This document shows, piece after piece, positions 32,885-39,179 of a DNA stretch of 64,000 bases (position 1 is its first letter; each line of letters opens with the position of its first letter). The position numbers and the translations under genes are program-made. The notes under the pieces are model-generated. The model saw only the letters and a program-made list of their open reading frames with translations. It had not been told where the DNA came from and made no database searches. This DNA is from Corynebacterium lowii (GTDB lineage Bacteria > Actinomycetota > Actinomycetes > Mycobacteriales > Mycobacteriaceae): assembly GCF_001412085.1 (NCBI RefSeq), contig NZ_LKEV01000001.1, forward strand, positions 1 to 64,000. Direction: 5' to 3'.

Positions 32885-33595
32885 CTAAGACCCCGCCCCC
32901 ACAAGCTCCCGCGCACGCCCATCGCTGAACTCCACGGCGGCGTCGGCAGCCTTCAACTGGGAGCGATCGTGGGTGACCATCACCGTGGCCACCTGGCGTT
33001 CGTCGGTGATCTGGCGCAGCAGGGCCACGATCTCTTCCGAGAGCCGGCGATCCAGGGCGGAGGTGGGTTCGTCGGCCAGGATCACGGCGGGGTCGCCCAT
33101 GAGCGCGCGGGCGATGTTCACGCGCTGGCGCTGCCCGCCGGAAAGTTCCTGGATACGGCGGTGCCCCAGCCCGCCCAGGCCCACCTCGTCGAGGATTCCC
33201 TCGGCGCGCCGCGCCCGTCGCTTAGCTTCACCGCGCTTCTTTCCCCAGCTCAGGGTGCCGCGCAGGTGGTCGCCCATGAGCAGTTGCTCGCGCACCGTGA
33301 GGGCGGGCAGGAGGTTGGGGCTTTGGAAGATCATGCCGATGCGCTCGCGGCGCACCTGGGAGCGCTCGGCCTCGCTGGCCTTGTGCAGCGCCTGGCCGTC
33401 CACGATCACCTCGCCCGAGGTGGGCACGATGAGCCCGGCCAGCACGGAGAGCAGCGTAGACTTGCCCGAACCGGATTCACCCACCACGGCGGTGAGGCTG
33501 CCCGCGGGCACGCTCAGCGATACCTCGTCGAGCGCGGTGACCGTGCCGGTGCCATCGGGAAAGACGCAGCTTACGCGGTTGAGAACGATAGTCAT
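32885..33595 (-). CDS. hrtA: ABC transporter ATPase, probable heme exporter subunit HrtA
   Basis: 236 aa. Walker A GESGSGKST, QSPNLLPALTVREQ, signature ELSGGQRQRVNIARAL, Walker B VILADEPTSALD. LolD/FtsE-type ATPase paired with an FtsX-type permease and divergent from a kinase-regulator pair, which is the arrangement of hrtBA and chrSA in C. glutamicum and C. diphtheriae. Assignment to heme export is inferred from that arrangement. Confidence 0.72.
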   Translation of the reverse strand: MTIVLNRVSCVFPDGTGTVTALDEVSLSVPAGSLTAVVGESGSGKSTLLSVLAGLIVPTSGEVIVDGQALHKASEAERSQVRRERIGMIFQSPNLLPALTVREQLLMGDHLRGTLSWGKKRGEAKRRARRAEGILDEVGLGGLGHRRIQELSGGQRQRVNIARALMGDPAVILADEPTSALDRRLSEEIVALLRQITDERQVATVMVTHDRSQLKAADAAVEFSDGRARELVGAGS

Positions 33596-33604
33596 TGGTT
33601 CCTC

Positions 33605-34636
33605 CTAGTTACTCAGAGCCAGTTGCGGATCAATAGCGGATACCTTGCGCGTGGCCAGCCATGCCCCCAGCAGCCCCAGGGCCAGTACCCCCACGGTGGG
33701 CAGCGCCACGGTGCTCACGCTGAGTTCAAAGGGCACCGCCCGGCGCGCGAACCAGCCGAGGAGCGCCGCCACCGCCGCGCCCGTCACCGCTCCCGCGCTG
33801 AGGATCAGTGCGGCTTGCCCCAGGCTGTCGCGCAGCACATAGCTTTTCGACGCCCCCAGCGCCCGCAGCACGGCAATATCCCTGGTGCGCTGAATCGTCC
33901 ACACGCTTAAGAAAGCCACGATCACCAGCGCGGAGATGCCGTAGAGCAGCCCCTGAATGGAGAGCAGGGAGCCGCGTTCGGACTGATAGGCCCCCAGGCC
34001 GCCGAAGGATTCCTTCACGCTCGCTGCCACCGAGCCGGTATCTGCGGCGGTGTTTTCCCACGCATCCTGTTTCTTGCCATTCAGCATGAGCACCGTGGGG
34101 GAGGGGGAGTGGGCCATCTGCTTCCAGGTGTCCATGTTCGCCCAGGCCACGGGGAGGTGGCTGTAATACTCCTCGGGTGCCTCACCGACCACCGGGACAT
34201 TCACCCCGCCCATCGTGACGTGCGTGCCCGTGGGGACGTCGAAAGTTTCCGGTAGCACCACCCCCTCGCTCGGAATGGCCCCGCCACCGGGGATTTCGTG
34301 GCCTTCGGGCAGGCCGAAGAGCGCCACGGCGGCGGTCTGCTCGCCCATCTGCGCGCTGGTCTGGGCCACACCCAGCGGGGTTACCTCGTCCACGCCGGGG
34401 GTGTCGCGCCAGGCGGCGAGCGTGCCCTCGGGGATCTGGGATTCCACGAAGTCCACCTCCGGGTGGAATACGTAACTCGTGGGATTGAGCGCCTCTAGCG
34501 CCGAGGTATTTTGCTTGCCCAAGCCCGCGGTGAGCCCGGTGAGCATCACCAGGAGGATAACGATGAGGGCCACCACGGCCCCCAGCAGGCTAAATCGGCC
34601 TCGCGCGCGGCGAATATCCCTGAGTGCAAGAAACAT
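33605..34636 (-). CDS. hrtB: FtsX-type permease, probable heme exporter subunit HrtB
   Basis: 343 aa. Start MFLALRDIRRARGRFSLLG followed by the first membrane helix, an exported domain of about 190 residues, then three helices with TRDIAVLRALGASKSYVLRDS. GGAAGG lies before ATG 34636. The N-terminal motif is what I recall for corynebacterial HrtB. Nine bases separate it from the ATPase gene. By family, it extracts heme from the membrane to relieve heme toxicity. Confidence 0.72.
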   Translation of the reverse strand: MFLALRDIRRARGRFSLLGAVVALIVILLVMLTGLTAGLGKQNTSALEALNPTSYVFHPEVDFVESQIPEGTLAAWRDTPGVDEVTPLGVAQTSAQMGEQTAAVALFGLPEGHEIPGGGAIPSEGVVLPETFDVPTGTHVTMGGVNVPVVGEAPEEYYSHLPVAWANMDTWKQMAHSPSPTVLMLNGKKQDAWENTAADTGSVAASVKESFGGLGAYQSERGSLLSIQGLLYGISALVIVAFLSVWTIQRTRDIAVLRALGASKSYVLRDSLGQAALILSAGAVTGAAVAALLGWFARRAVPFELSVSTVALPTVGVLALGLLGAWLATRKVSAIDPQLALSN

Positions 34637-34735
34637 GGGTGCCTTCCTTTCTTCTGTGTTTTCTCTCTGCCCTGTATCCTGCTGCTTTCACCCCTTGCCC
34701 CACATCGACTTGCCGCCAGATTCTGCTATCAGCCG

Positions 34736-34773
34736 ATCGGCCGATGCCGCGCCCACCTCCGGGGTTCTAGGCT
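34736..34773 (+). promoter_or_regulatory. Leaderless promoter of the sensor kinase with a palindrome at -35
   Basis: TAGGCT (34768-34773) lies 7 bases before GTG 34781. ATCGGCCGAT (34736-34745) overlaps the -35 region. The 144-base divergent region also serves the exporter genes, so a response-regulator site is expected here. Confidence 0.45.
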
Positions 34774-34780
34774 GGCCTGC

Positions 34781-36046
34781 GTGTCTGTTCCTCCTCATGA
34801 TTCCCCCGCCCTGAGCCGCGTTTTAGAGGCCATGCGGGTGGGCCTCCACGTGCTCTTTGCCTTCCTGCTGCTCTTTGGCACCGTGAGCACGGTCAGCGGG
34901 ATGGGCGCGGGGAGCGTGGCGGGGGTCGTCGCCACGCTTGCGCTCTCCTGCGCGCTCGCCGCCACCTACCTGGCGGGCACGGTGTGGGAAAATCGCTTTG
35001 CCCAGCGGCGCACCAGCCGCAATCCCGCGCCCTATCGCACCGCCTGGCTCGGCCTGATCTTGGCCCAGTGGCTTGGGTTATTGCTGCTCAGCGCGCACTT
35101 CGTGTGGCTGCTCTTTCCTCTGGTGTTCCTCATTTTGCACGCGGCTTCCAGCGATCTCGTGGGGCTGGGCACGGTGCTCATCGCCTGGGGGTTGAGCGTG
35201 GGGGTCCCGATGCTCGGCTGGCCGCTGCTCACCGGCACACTGGGGTGGGGGATAGGCGGAATCATCGGGCCTTTCGTGGGAGTGGCCTTTGCCATCGCCT
35301 GCTACTTCACCTACCGCGCTCTGCACCGGGAGGCCGAGCGGCACCGTCGATTAGCCCAACGGCTCAGCGCCACCCAGGAACAACTGCTCCTAGCGGAAAA
35401 TCAGGCGGGCCGCCTGGCGGAACGCGAACACCTCGCCAGGGAGATTCACGACACTCTGGCCCAGGGTTTTAACTCCATCGTGCTCTTTTCCCGCGCCTGC
35501 GAAAAGAACCTCCGCTCTGTTTCTGCTGATTCTGCTTTCACTGGCGACGCCGCGCGGGCCCTCGACACCGCCCGCGAGCAGATCGGCATTATCCACAGCG
35601 TAGCCACGGAAAACCTCGCGGAAGCCCGCCTCCTCGTCTCCCGTGGCGCCCCCTCTCACCAGGATCTTTCCGCCGCGCTCATCGAGTTAGGCCAACGCAC
35701 CACCCAGCGCCACGGCCTCCCCGTGGAGGTCATCGCCCCCGAGCAGGCTACGCGGGAACTGCCCGACGAGATCGCCTCCGCCCTCTTGCGCGTGGCCCAG
35801 GAGGCGCTGACCAACGTGGTGCGCCACGCGCACGCCTCCCGCGCCCGCATCACCGTGGCAGCCTGGGAGCGGGAACTGACCTTGGATATTTTCGACGACG
35901 GCACCGGCTTTGATCCCCACGCCACCCACGGCTTTGGATTACCCGGTATCCGCTCCCGCCTGCGCGAACTCGGCGGCCACCTCACCATTGATTCCTCTCC
36001 GCGCGGCACCGTGGTGGCGGCGCGGGTACCGTGGGAGCAATCATGA
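34781..36046 (+). CDS. chrS: Sensor histidine kinase, probable ChrS
   Basis: 421 aa from GTG 34781 (leaderless). Residues about 20-180 carry six hydrophobic segments with short loops, no large sensor domain. HisKA_3 box REHLAREIHDTLAQGFN with phosphoacceptor His223, then an HATPase with LLRVAQEALTNVVRHA and DDGTGFD plus GFGLPGIRSRLRELGG. Membrane-embedded sensing fits ChrS/HrrS-type heme kinases. Stop overlaps the regulator start (ATGA). Upstream in-frame ATGs overlap the exporter promoter and are rejected. Confidence 0.75.
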   Translation: MSVPPHDSPALSRVLEAMRVGLHVLFAFLLLFGTVSTVSGMGAGSVAGVVATLALSCALAATYLAGTVWENRFAQRRTSRNPAPYRTAWLGLILAQWLGLLLLSAHFVWLLFPLVFLILHAASSDLVGLGTVLIAWGLSVGVPMLGWPLLTGTLGWGIGGIIGPFVGVAFAIACYFTYRALHREAERHRRLAQRLSATQEQLLLAENQAGRLAEREHLAREIHDTLAQGFNSIVLFSRACEKNLRSVSADSAFTGDAARALDTAREQIGIIHSVATENLAEARLLVSRGAPSHQDLSAALIELGQRTTQRHGLPVEVIAPEQATRELPDEIASALLRVAQEALTNVVRHAHASRARITVAAWERELTLDIFDDGTGFDPHATHGFGLPGIRSRLRELGGHLTIDSSPRGTVVAARVPWEQS

Positions 36047-36648
36047 TACGGGTCATGCTTATCGACGATCACCCAGTGGTACGCGCCGGATTGCGCGCCA
36101 TTCTGGATAGCTTTGAGGACGTCACCGTGGTGGCCGAGGGGGCCACCGGACCACTGCCCGAAGAGGTGCCCCCGGCGGTAGACGTGGTGGTAATGGACAT
36201 TCAAATGCCCGGTACCAACGGCATTGAATCCACCCGGCAACTGCGCGCGGCGCAGGGGCCGCCCGTGCTGATCCTGACTACTTACGACGCACAGGCCGAT
36301 ATTGTGGCCGCGCTTTCCGCCGGAGCCCTGGGCTACCTGCTCAAGGATGCCCCGGAGGAGGAACTACACCGGGCCGTAGTGGCCACCTCCCAGGGAAAAC
36401 GGACCCTTTCCCCCGAAGTGGCCGCAGCATTGGCCGAGCGGTTGGGGCACCCCGAGGAATCGCTTTCCGCCAGGGAAACGGAGATTCTACGCGCCCTGGC
36501 GACGGGGGCCAGCAACCAACAACTGGCCGATTCCCTCTTCATCTCCCTGGGCACGGTGAAAACGCACCTGCTGCACATCTACCAAAAGCTGGGCGTGGAT
36601 AACCGCACGGCAGCCATCGCCCAGGCCAGGCAGCGGCGGCTTATCTAG
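36043..36648 (+). CDS. chrA: NarL/LuxR-type response regulator, probable ChrA
   Basis: 201 aa. Receiver domain with Asp8-Asp9 acidic pocket, phosphoacceptor Asp52 (VVVMDIQMPG), Thr in LTTYDAQ and Lys in LLKDAPEEE. C-terminal LuxR helix-turn-helix LSARETEILRALATGASNQQ with GTVKTHLLHIYQKLGVDNR. Coupled to the kinase gene. By analogy to ChrA it would activate hrtBA under heme stress. Confidence 0.77.
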   Translation: MIRVMLIDDHPVVRAGLRAILDSFEDVTVVAEGATGPLPEEVPPAVDVVVMDIQMPGTNGIESTRQLRAAQGPPVLILTTYDAQADIVAALSAGALGYLLKDAPEEELHRAVVATSQGKRTLSPEVAAALAERLGHPEESLSARETEILRALATGASNQQLADSLFISLGTVKTHLLHIYQKLGVDNRTAAIAQARQRRLI

Positions 36649-36690: not shown

Positions 36691-37386
36691 TTAGCGGGTG
36701 GGGTGCTGGCCTGGGTGCTGGCCCCAGTGGGTACGCATGGCCGCCACCACCAGCCTCAGCCGGGAGTTCACCCCAAAGTGGTTAATGAGCTGGGAGACGT
36801 GCTTTTTCACCGTGGACTCCGCATAGGACGTCCTCGCGGCGATCTCCGCATTCGAGAGTCCATCACACAGCAGAGAAAGAACGCGCTGCTCACCGGGGGA
36901 AAGAACGATCTCCGCCTTGTGTTCCTGCTCCTGCCGATGCGCCAATTCCCGCGCCGGAATGTAATCCACCAGGCGGGAGAGACACTGCGGGGAGACCGAG
37001 GTGCCACCATTCATCGCATCGCGCACCGAGGAAATGATCTCCTGCGGGCGGGCAGACTTGATGATGTACCCTGCCGCGCCCCCGGTGAGGGTTTGCAGCA
37101 TGGTTTCATCGGTATCAAAACCCGTCATGGCCACAAAAACCGGCGGCTGCGGCAGCTTGCGAATCTCCTGGAGGAGGGCGATACCATCCATCTCCGGCAT
37201 GTGAATATCCGTGAGCACCAAGTCCACGGCGTAATCATCCAGGGCCTTGAGGGCTGCTATCCCGTTGGCCGCCTCCGCCACCACGTGAATATCAGCGGTG
37301 GTATTGAAGTAGGTCCTTAGCGAGGAAAGCACCAGCGGATCATCGTCTACCAGGAGCAGGGGGATGTTTTTGGTGCGCTCTGCCAT
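36691..37386 (-). CDS. LuxR-type response regulator
   Basis: 231 aa from ATG 37386. Receiver domain LLVDDDPLVLSSLR, phosphoacceptor Asp60 (LVLTDIHMPEMDG), Thr in MTGFD, Lys in YIIKSARP. A long linker with HRQEQEHKAE leads to the LuxR helix-turn-helix NAEIAARTSYAESTVKKHVS. Starts 8 bases after the stop of the small secreted peptide gene; the likely kinase lies upstream of that gene on the same strand. Convergent with chrA. Confidence 0.85.
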   Translation of the reverse strand: MAERTKNIPLLLVDDDPLVLSSLRTYFNTTADIHVVAEAANGIAALKALDDYAVDLVLTDIHMPEMDGIALLQEIRKLPQPPVFVAMTGFDTDETMLQTLTGGAAGYIIKSARPQEIISSVRDAMNGGTSVSPQCLSRLVDYIPARELAHRQEQEHKAEIVLSPGEQRVLSLLCDGLSNAEIAARTSYAESTVKKHVSQLINHFGVNSRLRLVVAAMRTHWGQHPGQHPTR

Positions 37387-37394
37387 CGGAAAAC

Positions 37395-37598
37395 TCACGA
37401 GCACCAGGGGAGGGTCGGGTTCTTGCGGCAGCTAAAAATCGACGCCGCGGAATCCTTCGTAGCCTGCTCCACCAGGACGTCGGATCCGCTGTACGAGGAA
37501 CCTTCCGGGGCGGCCTGCACCGCAGGGGCCGCCACCAAGAGGCCCGCAGTAGCAGCGATGGCGCAAGCCATGCTGCGCAAACGACGGGAACGGTTCAT
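37395..37598 (-). CDS. Small secreted two-cysteine peptide between kinase and regulator genes
   Basis: 67 aa. Signal peptide MNRSRRLRSMACAIAATAG... with cleavage expected after AVQA (residue 29). The mature 38 residues end in a Cys57-x8-Cys66 pair one residue before the C-terminus, able to close a 10-residue disulfide loop (CRKNPTLPWC). No known family recognised. It has its own perfect -10 (TATAAT) and sits between a sensor kinase and its apparent response regulator, so a ligand or accessory role for the kinase is the obvious hypothesis. Confidence 0.7.
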   Translation of the reverse strand: MNRSRRLRSMACAIAATAGLLVAAPAVQAAPEGSSYSGSDVLVEQATKDSAASIFSCRKNPTLPWCS

Positions 37599-37648
37599 GG
37601 GACTGCACCAGCCTTTCTAGGCGTGAAATGTTATTTGGTCAGGGCCAT

Positions 37649-37654
37649 ATTATA
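37649..37654 (-). promoter_or_regulatory. Internal promoter (-10 TATAAT) of the secreted peptide gene
   Basis: A perfect minus-strand TATAAT lies in the 94-base gap after the kinase gene, 50 bases before the peptide ATG. No good -35 was found. It would let peptide and regulator be expressed without the kinase. Confidence 0.5.
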
Positions 37655-37692
37655 GGGCGCGTTTCCCCGCAAAAGGGAGGGGAGGTCACGTT

Positions 37693-38841
37693 TCAGAGAC
37701 CAAGGTCACGTGTTCCCAGAGATGAGAACTCAATAGTAAGGGTCCACACCTCGCCATCGCTATGGCTTAGTAACCTTCCGCCCATGCTCGCTACGGAGCG
37801 ACGCATCATTCTTATACCCAGGCCGGAGGAAAGTACGGAGGAAGAAAACCGCCCCCGGCGTTCTTTCTCCCCGGCGATCTCATTAATGAGGTCAATGCGT
37901 AGGTTATTGCCGCTGCCGCTCACCAATAAGCGCACCTCGGAGCCGGGGGTGGCGTATTTAATCGCGTTGGTGGCCCCCTCCATGAGCACCTTGTGCACGA
38001 TCTCCAGGGTGGGGTTGGTGATCTGAAGGTCCTCGCTCTCATCGAGCACCGATACCCGCAACCGGTGATCCCGCATTTTGGCGCTGACCTCCTTCACCGT
38101 CTCCACCAGGGTAGGGGCGGAGGGTTTTTCCTGCTTATCCTGCGGAGCATTGAGCAGGCTGAGCAAAGAACGCACCTGCGCCATCGTGATGCGGGCGTCC
38201 TCGGCAATGGAAGAAAGTTCCCCGTGCAGGCGGCCCTCTGCTGGTTCCTGCATCGCCAGCACCTCGGAGCGCATCACGATCGAGGTCAGTGAGGCGGCCA
38301 CGGAATCGTGCAAGGTGCTCGCCAATTCCTCGCGGCTTCTGCGATATTCAGCGCGCCATTGTTCCGCCAATTCGATCTTCTGGCGCACCTTGCGCCCCAA
38401 AATCCACCCGGCAAACGCCGTGACGATCATAAAACTTTCCCAAATAACGATGGCGGAAAAGTCGGCCTCAATGGTCTTTGAATTGCGATCAATAAGGCCT
38501 AGAAACCCGACCGCCACGCCCACGGGAATGAGAAGCCACCAACGCCCGTGGTATCCCACAATCGCCATGAGAATGGCGCACAGAAATACATTGGGCGGCA
38601 AGAAAAGGTGCGGCAAGTACACGGTGCAAGCAAAGGACACTAAAAAGCCGATGCTGCCCCCCACGGGATAGCGCACCGCGAGGGCAACGCTGGCGGTGAG
38701 AATGACCGCCCATAGCGCGCTTTCAGCGGTGACCTCCCAGGGATTGCTGATCCGCAGGGCAAAAATCATCCAGCACAGCGCACATACCGCCACCCATCCA
38801 TCGCGGGGCATGCGGTGCATCCACTGAGTTATCTTCTCCAT
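37693..38841 (-). CDS. Sensor histidine kinase
   Basis: 382 aa from ATG 38841; GTG codons at 38844 and 38847 are alternatives and no start has a good ribosome site. Six hydrophobic segments in residues 15-148, then HisKA_3 box EELASTLHDSVAASL with His178, and an HATPase with LMEGATNAIKYATPG and SSGLGIRMMRRSVASMGG. The D-box is degenerate: IDLINEIAGE replaces the usual DDG. Likely partner is the regulator at 36691-37386, with the secreted peptide gene between. Confidence 0.82.
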   Translation of the reverse strand: MEKITQWMHRMPRDGWVAVCALCWMIFALRISNPWEVTAESALWAVILTASVALAVRYPVGGSIGFLVSFACTVYLPHLFLPPNVFLCAILMAIVGYHGRWWLLIPVGVAVGFLGLIDRNSKTIEADFSAIVIWESFMIVTAFAGWILGRKVRQKIELAEQWRAEYRRSREELASTLHDSVAASLTSIVMRSEVLAMQEPAEGRLHGELSSIAEDARITMAQVRSLLSLLNAPQDKQEKPSAPTLVETVKEVSAKMRDHRLRVSVLDESEDLQITNPTLEIVHKVLMEGATNAIKYATPGSEVRLLVSGSGNNLRIDLINEIAGEKERRGRFSSSVLSSGLGIRMMRRSVASMGGRLLSHSDGEVWTLTIEFSSLGTRDLGL

Positions 38842-38921
38842 CACCACGCCACTTTCGTGCTTTCTCCCCCTGGTTGCGGGTTACGAGGGAGCGTTATTCA
38901 GCCTCAAGGGTACCGTGAGCA

Positions 38922-38970
38922 TAAAAAGACTCCGGCCGCTGTGCCGTTTCCACGCACCTCGACCGGAGCC
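38922..38970 (-). terminator. Intrinsic terminator in the kinase leader
   Basis: Minus-strand GGCTCCGGTCG pairs with CGGCCGGAGTC (11 bp, two G-U pairs), with an inner GTGC/GCAC stem, then TTTTT. The G-U pairs form only on the minus strand. Confidence 0.7.
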
Positions 38971-39179
38971 TTCTTACACTGCACGACCCTGTTGGACGCA
39001 CTCACTGTGGTTTCCCGTTCGATCAAGTTCCGAGAACCTCTCCGGCGGCTCCCGTTTTGATCTAAGCACAGGGTAACCTTACAACCTCGCGGCAATCAAC
39101 CCTTTGATGGAAAATATTTTCCTCATTTTCTAAAGAAGCAGGTCAGGGGACCCTCCTTCCCGTAGTGGTCACCCTAATC

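Follow-up and report, generated by a model that had tools for sequence, protein, structure and literature searches.

The window analysed in this work is a stretch of 64,000 nucleotides from Corynebacterium lowii, and the cluster under study consists of three genes on its minus strand. First of all, a sensor histidine kinase of 384 amino acids is encoded at 37693..38847, with an alternative ATG start at 38841; it is followed by a two-cysteine peptide gene of 67 amino acids with a signal-like start (37395..37598), recognised from its sequence and its homologues, and by a response regulator composed of REC and GerE domains (36691..37404, the likely start being GTG 37398 or ATG 37386). The first-pass annotation had described a kinase, an exported-looking Cys-x8-Cys peptide of 67 residues and a LuxR-type regulator in one minus-strand cluster, and this arrangement was confirmed by the open reading frames and profile matches. 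In the kinase, HisKA_3 was matched at E 2.6e-9 and HATPase_c at 26.3 bits, just under the cut-off of 26.4; the match to DUF7134 lies below its cut-off, and the GHKL profile HATPase_c_5 reached only E 0.079. The REC and GerE domains of the regulator were matched at E 4.3e-26 and E 3.5e-11, respectively. The TGA codon of the peptide gene overlaps the possible GTG start of the regulator (37398), so that the translation of the two genes may be coupled.

Read from the sequence, residues 1–29 of the peptide (37512..37598, minus strand) form a predicted Sec signal peptide with a basic n-region, a hydrophobic core and V-Q-A, and the predicted remainder after residue 29 comprises 38 amino acids ending in FSCRKNPTLPWCS. 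At the tip, C57 and C66 enclose eight residues (CRKNPTLPWC, 37401..37430, minus strand) and are followed by one Ser. When the peptide was searched against Pfam and NCBIfam at E up to 1, no match was obtained, a result that covers MgrB only if these libraries carry an MgrB model. The perfect TATAAT noticed earlier before the peptide is indeed present as a −10 element (37649..37654, minus strand), roughly 50 bases upstream of the first codon of the peptide; three of the four close relatives retain it, L071 has TATACT instead and the more distant L072 lacks it. A scan of the region for sigma-70 promoters gave no match. Upstream of the −10 element lies the box GTGACYTTNGTCTC (37696..37709, minus strand), a possible regulator site according to its conservation: it is exact in the window and in three of the four close relatives, carries one mismatch in L071 and is absent from L072. 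In the C. lowii genome, this box is the one exact match, and four more places match with one mismatch.

At 32885-36648, an ABC ATPase and an FtsX-type permease are arranged divergently from another kinase–regulator pair, the whole being convergent with the studied cluster; we take these genes to be HrtBA-ChrSA-like. The ChrA-like regulator of this pair, the one compared, is only 32% identical to the window regulator, which is thus not close to ChrA by this measure; its kinase ORF overlaps it, and no peptide lies between them. The HrtBA-ChrSA gene arrangement itself is described in the accessible text of PMC3353115. A heme link through these neighbours is unsupported, owing to the low identity of the two regulators and to the varying neighbours of homologous loci. 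On the other side, upstream of the kinase, a conserved RNA-like element occupies 38920-39085 of the minus strand and ends in a strong hairpin with a T-run (131 nt folded, z −3.7). It was found in two of 61 sampled genomes, namely its own and G048 (83% identity), where the copy has no kinase beside it and is divergent from a YjeF-type gene; an Rfam search of 15 kb gave no match at the element and one weak match elsewhere. Its membership in the signalling system was rejected, because the G048 copy stands without a kinase and G048 is not among the genomes from which a regulator was fetched. The element is likely an independent small RNA.

Distribution and variation of the gene set in Corynebacterium

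A first search of 151 genomes returned three close homologues of the peptide (60–67% identity), together with several more distant ones that share its end. The regulator was then used as the query on 242 Corynebacterium genomes, since choosing loci by the peptide was to be avoided, and 149 of the 242 gave a match at E up to 1e-30; the window together with the surroundings of the best 140 regulator matches formed a set of 141 loci from 126 genomes. At 111 of these loci the peptide gene is directly upstream of the regulator (one of them, L204, added by hand), at eight it is linked elsewhere, at three it is decayed and at 19 it is absent. Of the eight linked elsewhere, two were read in their loci, convergent in L073 and downstream in L124, and the other six are profile matches about 2.6 kb downstream of the regulator. 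At least one intact linked peptide is present in 111 of the 126 genomes, C. aurimucosum (L208) being one named carrier, and seven genomes have two such units bearing different tips. Non-conservation of the peptide with the kinase and regulator was what the first-pass annotation had said would refute its reading; the genus-wide survey found conservation instead (111/141 loci).

The strict rule demanded a signal-like start and C-x(3-9)-[W/F]-C near the stop, and such an ORF was found upstream of 105 of the 141 regulators, versus 10 of 1735 control windows from the same loci and 3 of 1410 dinucleotide shuffles. With the loose rule, in which the aromatic residue is dropped, the counts were 111/141, 131/1735 and 55/1410. 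Directly upstream of the regulator, then, lies a peptide with a signal-like start and a C-x(4-8)-C tip, and a partnership of kinase, looped peptide and LuxR-type regulator is well supported by gene order and motif. Among 301 genomes of the family, just three relatives of the regulator at E up to 1e-38 lie beyond the genus, all without the peptide, and in these the kinase ORF runs up to or into the regulator. A plasmid search gave one Nonomuraea record for the regulator.

The anatomy of the family was counted on 110 peptides, 103 of them distinct. The ring between the two cysteines has eight residues in 78 of the 110, seven in 9, five in 2 and four in 21. Immediately ahead of the second Cys, 101 peptides have Trp, 4 have Phe, 2 each have Tyr and Ile, and one has Leu. 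Within the distinct set, F or L occupies position −2 relative to the first Cys in 92/103, and Asp occupies position −4 in 53/103. Altered ends occur in three peptides, namely a Cys-Trp order in L087 and Ile before the last Cys in L196 and L206. Across five species, namely that of the window and its four closest relatives, the pN/pS of the last 21 codons is 0.18, and the tip of the peptide is under purifying selection.

A kinase-sized ORF ends just upstream of the peptide in 108 of the 111 loci; the three without it are L074, whose peptide is intact, and L135 and L162, both situated at the end of a contig. The LH[DN] motif is present in 93 of these kinase ORFs, and several members of the CGG-ring clade have LHG instead. 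According to hydropathy, the window kinase has six membrane segments, and the 92 kinases scored have four to seven (five in 45 and six in 36). A two-sequence AlphaFold model is of low confidence (mean pLDDT 59.8); it gives the same helix order as hydropathy, without an outer domain, and its best PDB matches are mostly cytoplasmic parts of kinases, including DesK. A ligand-like role of the peptide would fit such a kinase, which crosses the membrane about six times and for which no extracellular domain is evident. In 91 units, peptide distances follow those of the kinase membrane part (r 0.82), the catalytic part (r 0.84) and the regulator (r 0.79), with no extra covariation with the membrane part (partial r 0.20 versus 0.38 for the catalytic part). 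These correlations therefore support co-inheritance as a unit and not contact, and no coevolution specific to the sensor part of the kinase was found.

Among the 19 peptide-less loci, eight have an adjacent kinase-sized gene (L083, L084, L169, L173, L175, L192, L205 and L207), with the kinase motif in all but L192; at the others, no kinase-sized gene, a fragment or an unrelated ORF lies upstream of the regulator. Truncated regulators were seen in L116, with an intact peptide, and in L145 and L198, without one. In L161 the peptide is ruined and no kinase-sized ORF is present, and the decayed peptides of L076 and L132 are still beside a kinase-sized ORF. In a quick regulator tree of uncertain root (138 rows, three short ones omitted), rows without a peptide do not group together (11 changes), and L083 and L084 sit within a clade that carries it, so that secondary loss is the simpler reading. 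Moreover, since the kinase remains beside the regulator in L083 and L084, the peptide is dispensable at least there. These two loci belong to sister genomes that have kept kinase and regulator with no peptide in the surrounding 5.5 kb, that is, a natural deletion, by which the role of the peptide could be told.

Secreted A3 proteins and shared promoter elements

Clustering of the neighbours at the 141 loci gave a family of secreted-looking proteins, here called A3, of about 190–220 residues, some with longer tails, whose genes are often in tandem pairs or triplets. Against Pfam and NCBIfam, A3 gave only sub-threshold matches, and a plasmid search returned no record of it. An aerolysin-like or beta-pore-forming nature of A3 was an impression by eye, which searches of relatives against Pfam, NCBIfam and PDB sequences neither supported nor excluded. 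The family was found in 119 of the 242 genomes at E up to 1e-6: 86 genomes have both A3 and a fetched regulator, 40 the regulator only, 33 A3 only and 83 neither (Fisher p 5e-10, uncorrected for kinship). Proximity was taken from the 150 best-scoring A3 places and is therefore a lower bound: at least 28 of the 141 regulator loci have an A3 gene no more than 4 kb away, and at least 29 have one within 12 kb. The A3-linked loci are spread over several distinct parts of the regulator tree; 27 of them have an intact peptide and one a decayed peptide, and none is among the 19 peptide-less loci. The genome of the window carries three tandem A3 genes (L314-L316, G000:C1:446107-447985) about 410 kb from the cluster, behind genes reading as ribosomal proteins and with GTACGAAAGTACC upstream. 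In one genome (G045, L030 and L073), repeated coding stretches were observed near a kinase remnant, A3 genes and the peptide, which may be a recombination site or an assembly effect.

The promoters of peptide and A3 genes were compared at 19 loci with 20 shuffles each, and five of the 19 scored above the best of their shuffles, three of them through the GGAACGAAAGTA element. In one clade, both the peptide and the A3 genes have promoters with GGAACGAAAGTA-like elements of 11–12 bases; ahead of the peptide these are often two spaced copies in inverted orientation. Exact copies of the core ACGAAAGTA were counted in 12/110 peptide promoters versus 1/651 control windows (shuffle mean 0.2), and by reading, 11 of these 12 promoters belong to one clade. 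Of the 66 distal A3 promoters, 52 come from genomes with the regulator and 14 from the other genomes; three of the former and none of the latter contain exact ACGAAAGTA. With one mismatch the counts are 7/52 versus 2/14, without enrichment. The peptide promoter of the window has no exact copy of ACGAAAGTA. One regulator box for all A3 promoters is thus only partly supported, since most of those not adjoining the operon lack it. For the same reason, and because the window peptide promoter has no exact box, control of A3 as an output of the signalling unit is no more than a plausible proposal.

Candidate mechanism and comparison with known systems

The explanation that we favour for the whole, at a probability slightly above even, is that the three genes form one signalling unit, in which the looped peptide would be the extracellular signal or ligand of its own kinase. 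In this mechanism, the peptide would be exported by Sec and then trimmed, and a disulfide between the two terminal cysteines would close it; the looped tip (F/L-x-C-ring-W-C) would then bind the outer face or the helix bundle of the partner kinase and set its activity, after which the regulator would alter transcription. Most likely, the peptide would act outside the cell as a signal that its own kinase reads, and in several lineages the A3 secreted proteins would be a likely part of the output. The strongest support for this prediction is the fixed gene order with the conserved tip, and its weakest link is the peptide leaving the cell. As for the earlier proposal that the peptide is a ligand or modulator of the kinase, the conservation of the gene set and the absence of an evident extracellular domain in the kinase speak for it, the rest of that proposal being a sequence-based prediction; a private ligand or modulator is the best reading of the peptide at present.

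The proposal had also appealed to Agr-type logic. AgrBDCA is alike in that a small exported peptide of cyclic type is encoded together with a kinase of several membrane helices; in Agr, the ring is a thiolactone made by AgrB, the kinase is of the GHKL class and the regulator is of the LytTR type. Here, in contrast, a signal-like start and two terminal cysteines are found with a HisKA_3 kinase and a GerE regulator, and the two conserved cysteines suggest a disulfide rather than a thiolactone or lactone ring. AgrB (PF04647) gave no match over the cut-off in 10 genomes; the C. lowii genome gave none at all, and G045 gave one under the cut-off. Given the lack of AgrB, the GerE output domain and the HisKA_3 kinase, the likeness to Agr holds as an analogy only.

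The main rival is same-cell control of the MgrB type. The peptide would then stay with the producing cell as an exported or membrane-anchored modulator of the kinase, and through its cysteines it would perhaps report redox or folding conditions outside the membrane; we consider this a serious possibility of about one chance in three. MgrB inhibits a kinase of another class, PhoQ; this kinase has an outer domain, and none is evident in the window kinase, a difference that speaks against the rival. In the accessible text of PMC8404706, MgrB is likewise a very small membrane protein acting on a kinase, with two key periplasmic cysteines and a terminal aromatic residue, and its residues C28, C39, F34 and W47 matter for the control of PhoQ. 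The corynebacterial peptide shares the two cysteines and the aromatic residue near the end and is encoded in cis with its kinase, the order kinase–peptide–regulator being, unlike in MgrB-PhoQ, the hallmark of the unit. Very short members of 38–44 amino acids, L178, L199, L098 and L099 among them, could stay anchored. A loose A-x-A-like pattern is found in 93 of 103 distinct peptides, only slightly above chance: it is also common in random regulator segments of equal lengths (1555/2060), and therefore tells little on cleavage and leaves the case for release weak. The stretch joining the hydrophobic core to the tip differs among the peptides in both length and sequence, and the tip itself is kept; this agrees with a released tip but would be compatible with a tethered one as well.

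It is improbable that the peptide is instead an output product, for instance a small bacteriocin or a peptide with surface activity, made by a two-component system sensing something else. The peptide's own −10 element and the nearby A3 secreted proteins would agree with such a product, as would the ABC transporter ATPase gene after the regulator in C. aurimucosum (L208 4725-5417, ABC_tran E 2.5e-22), which its position places, as the L111 entry, in a neighbour cluster present at 5 of the 141 loci, four of them with a peptide; against it stand the conserved ring and tip and the placement of the gene ahead of the regulator at 111/141 loci. An immunity gene may nonetheless be among the neighbours. 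A chance small ORF that is not translated, to which the empty Pfam and NCBIfam searches at E up to 1 might point, is contradicted by the motif enrichment, the conserved locus, the tip pattern and the pN/pS and is of negligible probability.

Returning to the unit with its looped peptide, other systems share parts of its design. EsrISR has a third membrane partner beside its kinase–regulator pair, which is a PspC membrane protein and not a looped peptide; the profile search of the window kinase gave no PspC match. The third exported or membrane partner of MtrAB-LpqB is a lipoprotein, likewise no looped peptide, and HrrSA and ChrSA are of the same HPK7/LuxR class, as given in the accessible text of PMC3353115. 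For the heme kinases of HrrSA and ChrSA, the available part of PMC5812335 describes six membrane helices joined by small loops. The former source, a 2012 review of corynebacterial two-component systems, counts five LuxR-type systems in C. glutamicum, and in its accessible text neither 'peptide' nor 'small protein' occurs; in a census of LuxR proteins in Actinobacteria, which reports seven REC-LuxR proteins in C. aurimucosum, the three uses of 'peptide' in the accessible text do not concern such a system (PMC3466318). In C. glutamicum, one number stands between hrrS (Cgl2937) and hrrA (Cgl2935), where a small gene may be located (PMC3353115, accessible text). Within the open literature, with most subscription journals and preprints outside this scope, no peptide system of this kind is named among the matches listed. 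To our knowledge, no peptide quorum-sensing system has been described in corynebacteria.

Meaning for Corynebacterium

Peptide-linked two-component signalling is of a kind already known, and the corynebacterial looped-peptide form looks like a previously unnamed family. In its broader version, which we hold tentatively and at somewhat less than an even chance, Corynebacterium would possess peptide pheromones of a class of its own, W-C peptides exported by Sec and looped by a disulfide, each read by a private membrane-embedded kinase. Different specificity types, with rings of four to eight residues, would occur across the genus and sometimes within one genome, and the systems would control secreted proteins of an unnamed family. 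There is a real chance that this is the first peptide signalling class of the genus. Because the candidate ligand is compact and chemically simple and its partner kinase is fixed, the question could be tested with a synthetic peptide and a reporter; LuxR-type two-component systems lacking an assigned stimulus gain a candidate stimulus, and the linked A3 secreted proteins offer a first guess at the controlled output. Corynebacteria are common residents of skin and airways, pathogens included, and if the reading is true, these looped peptides may be a chemical language of Corynebacterium.
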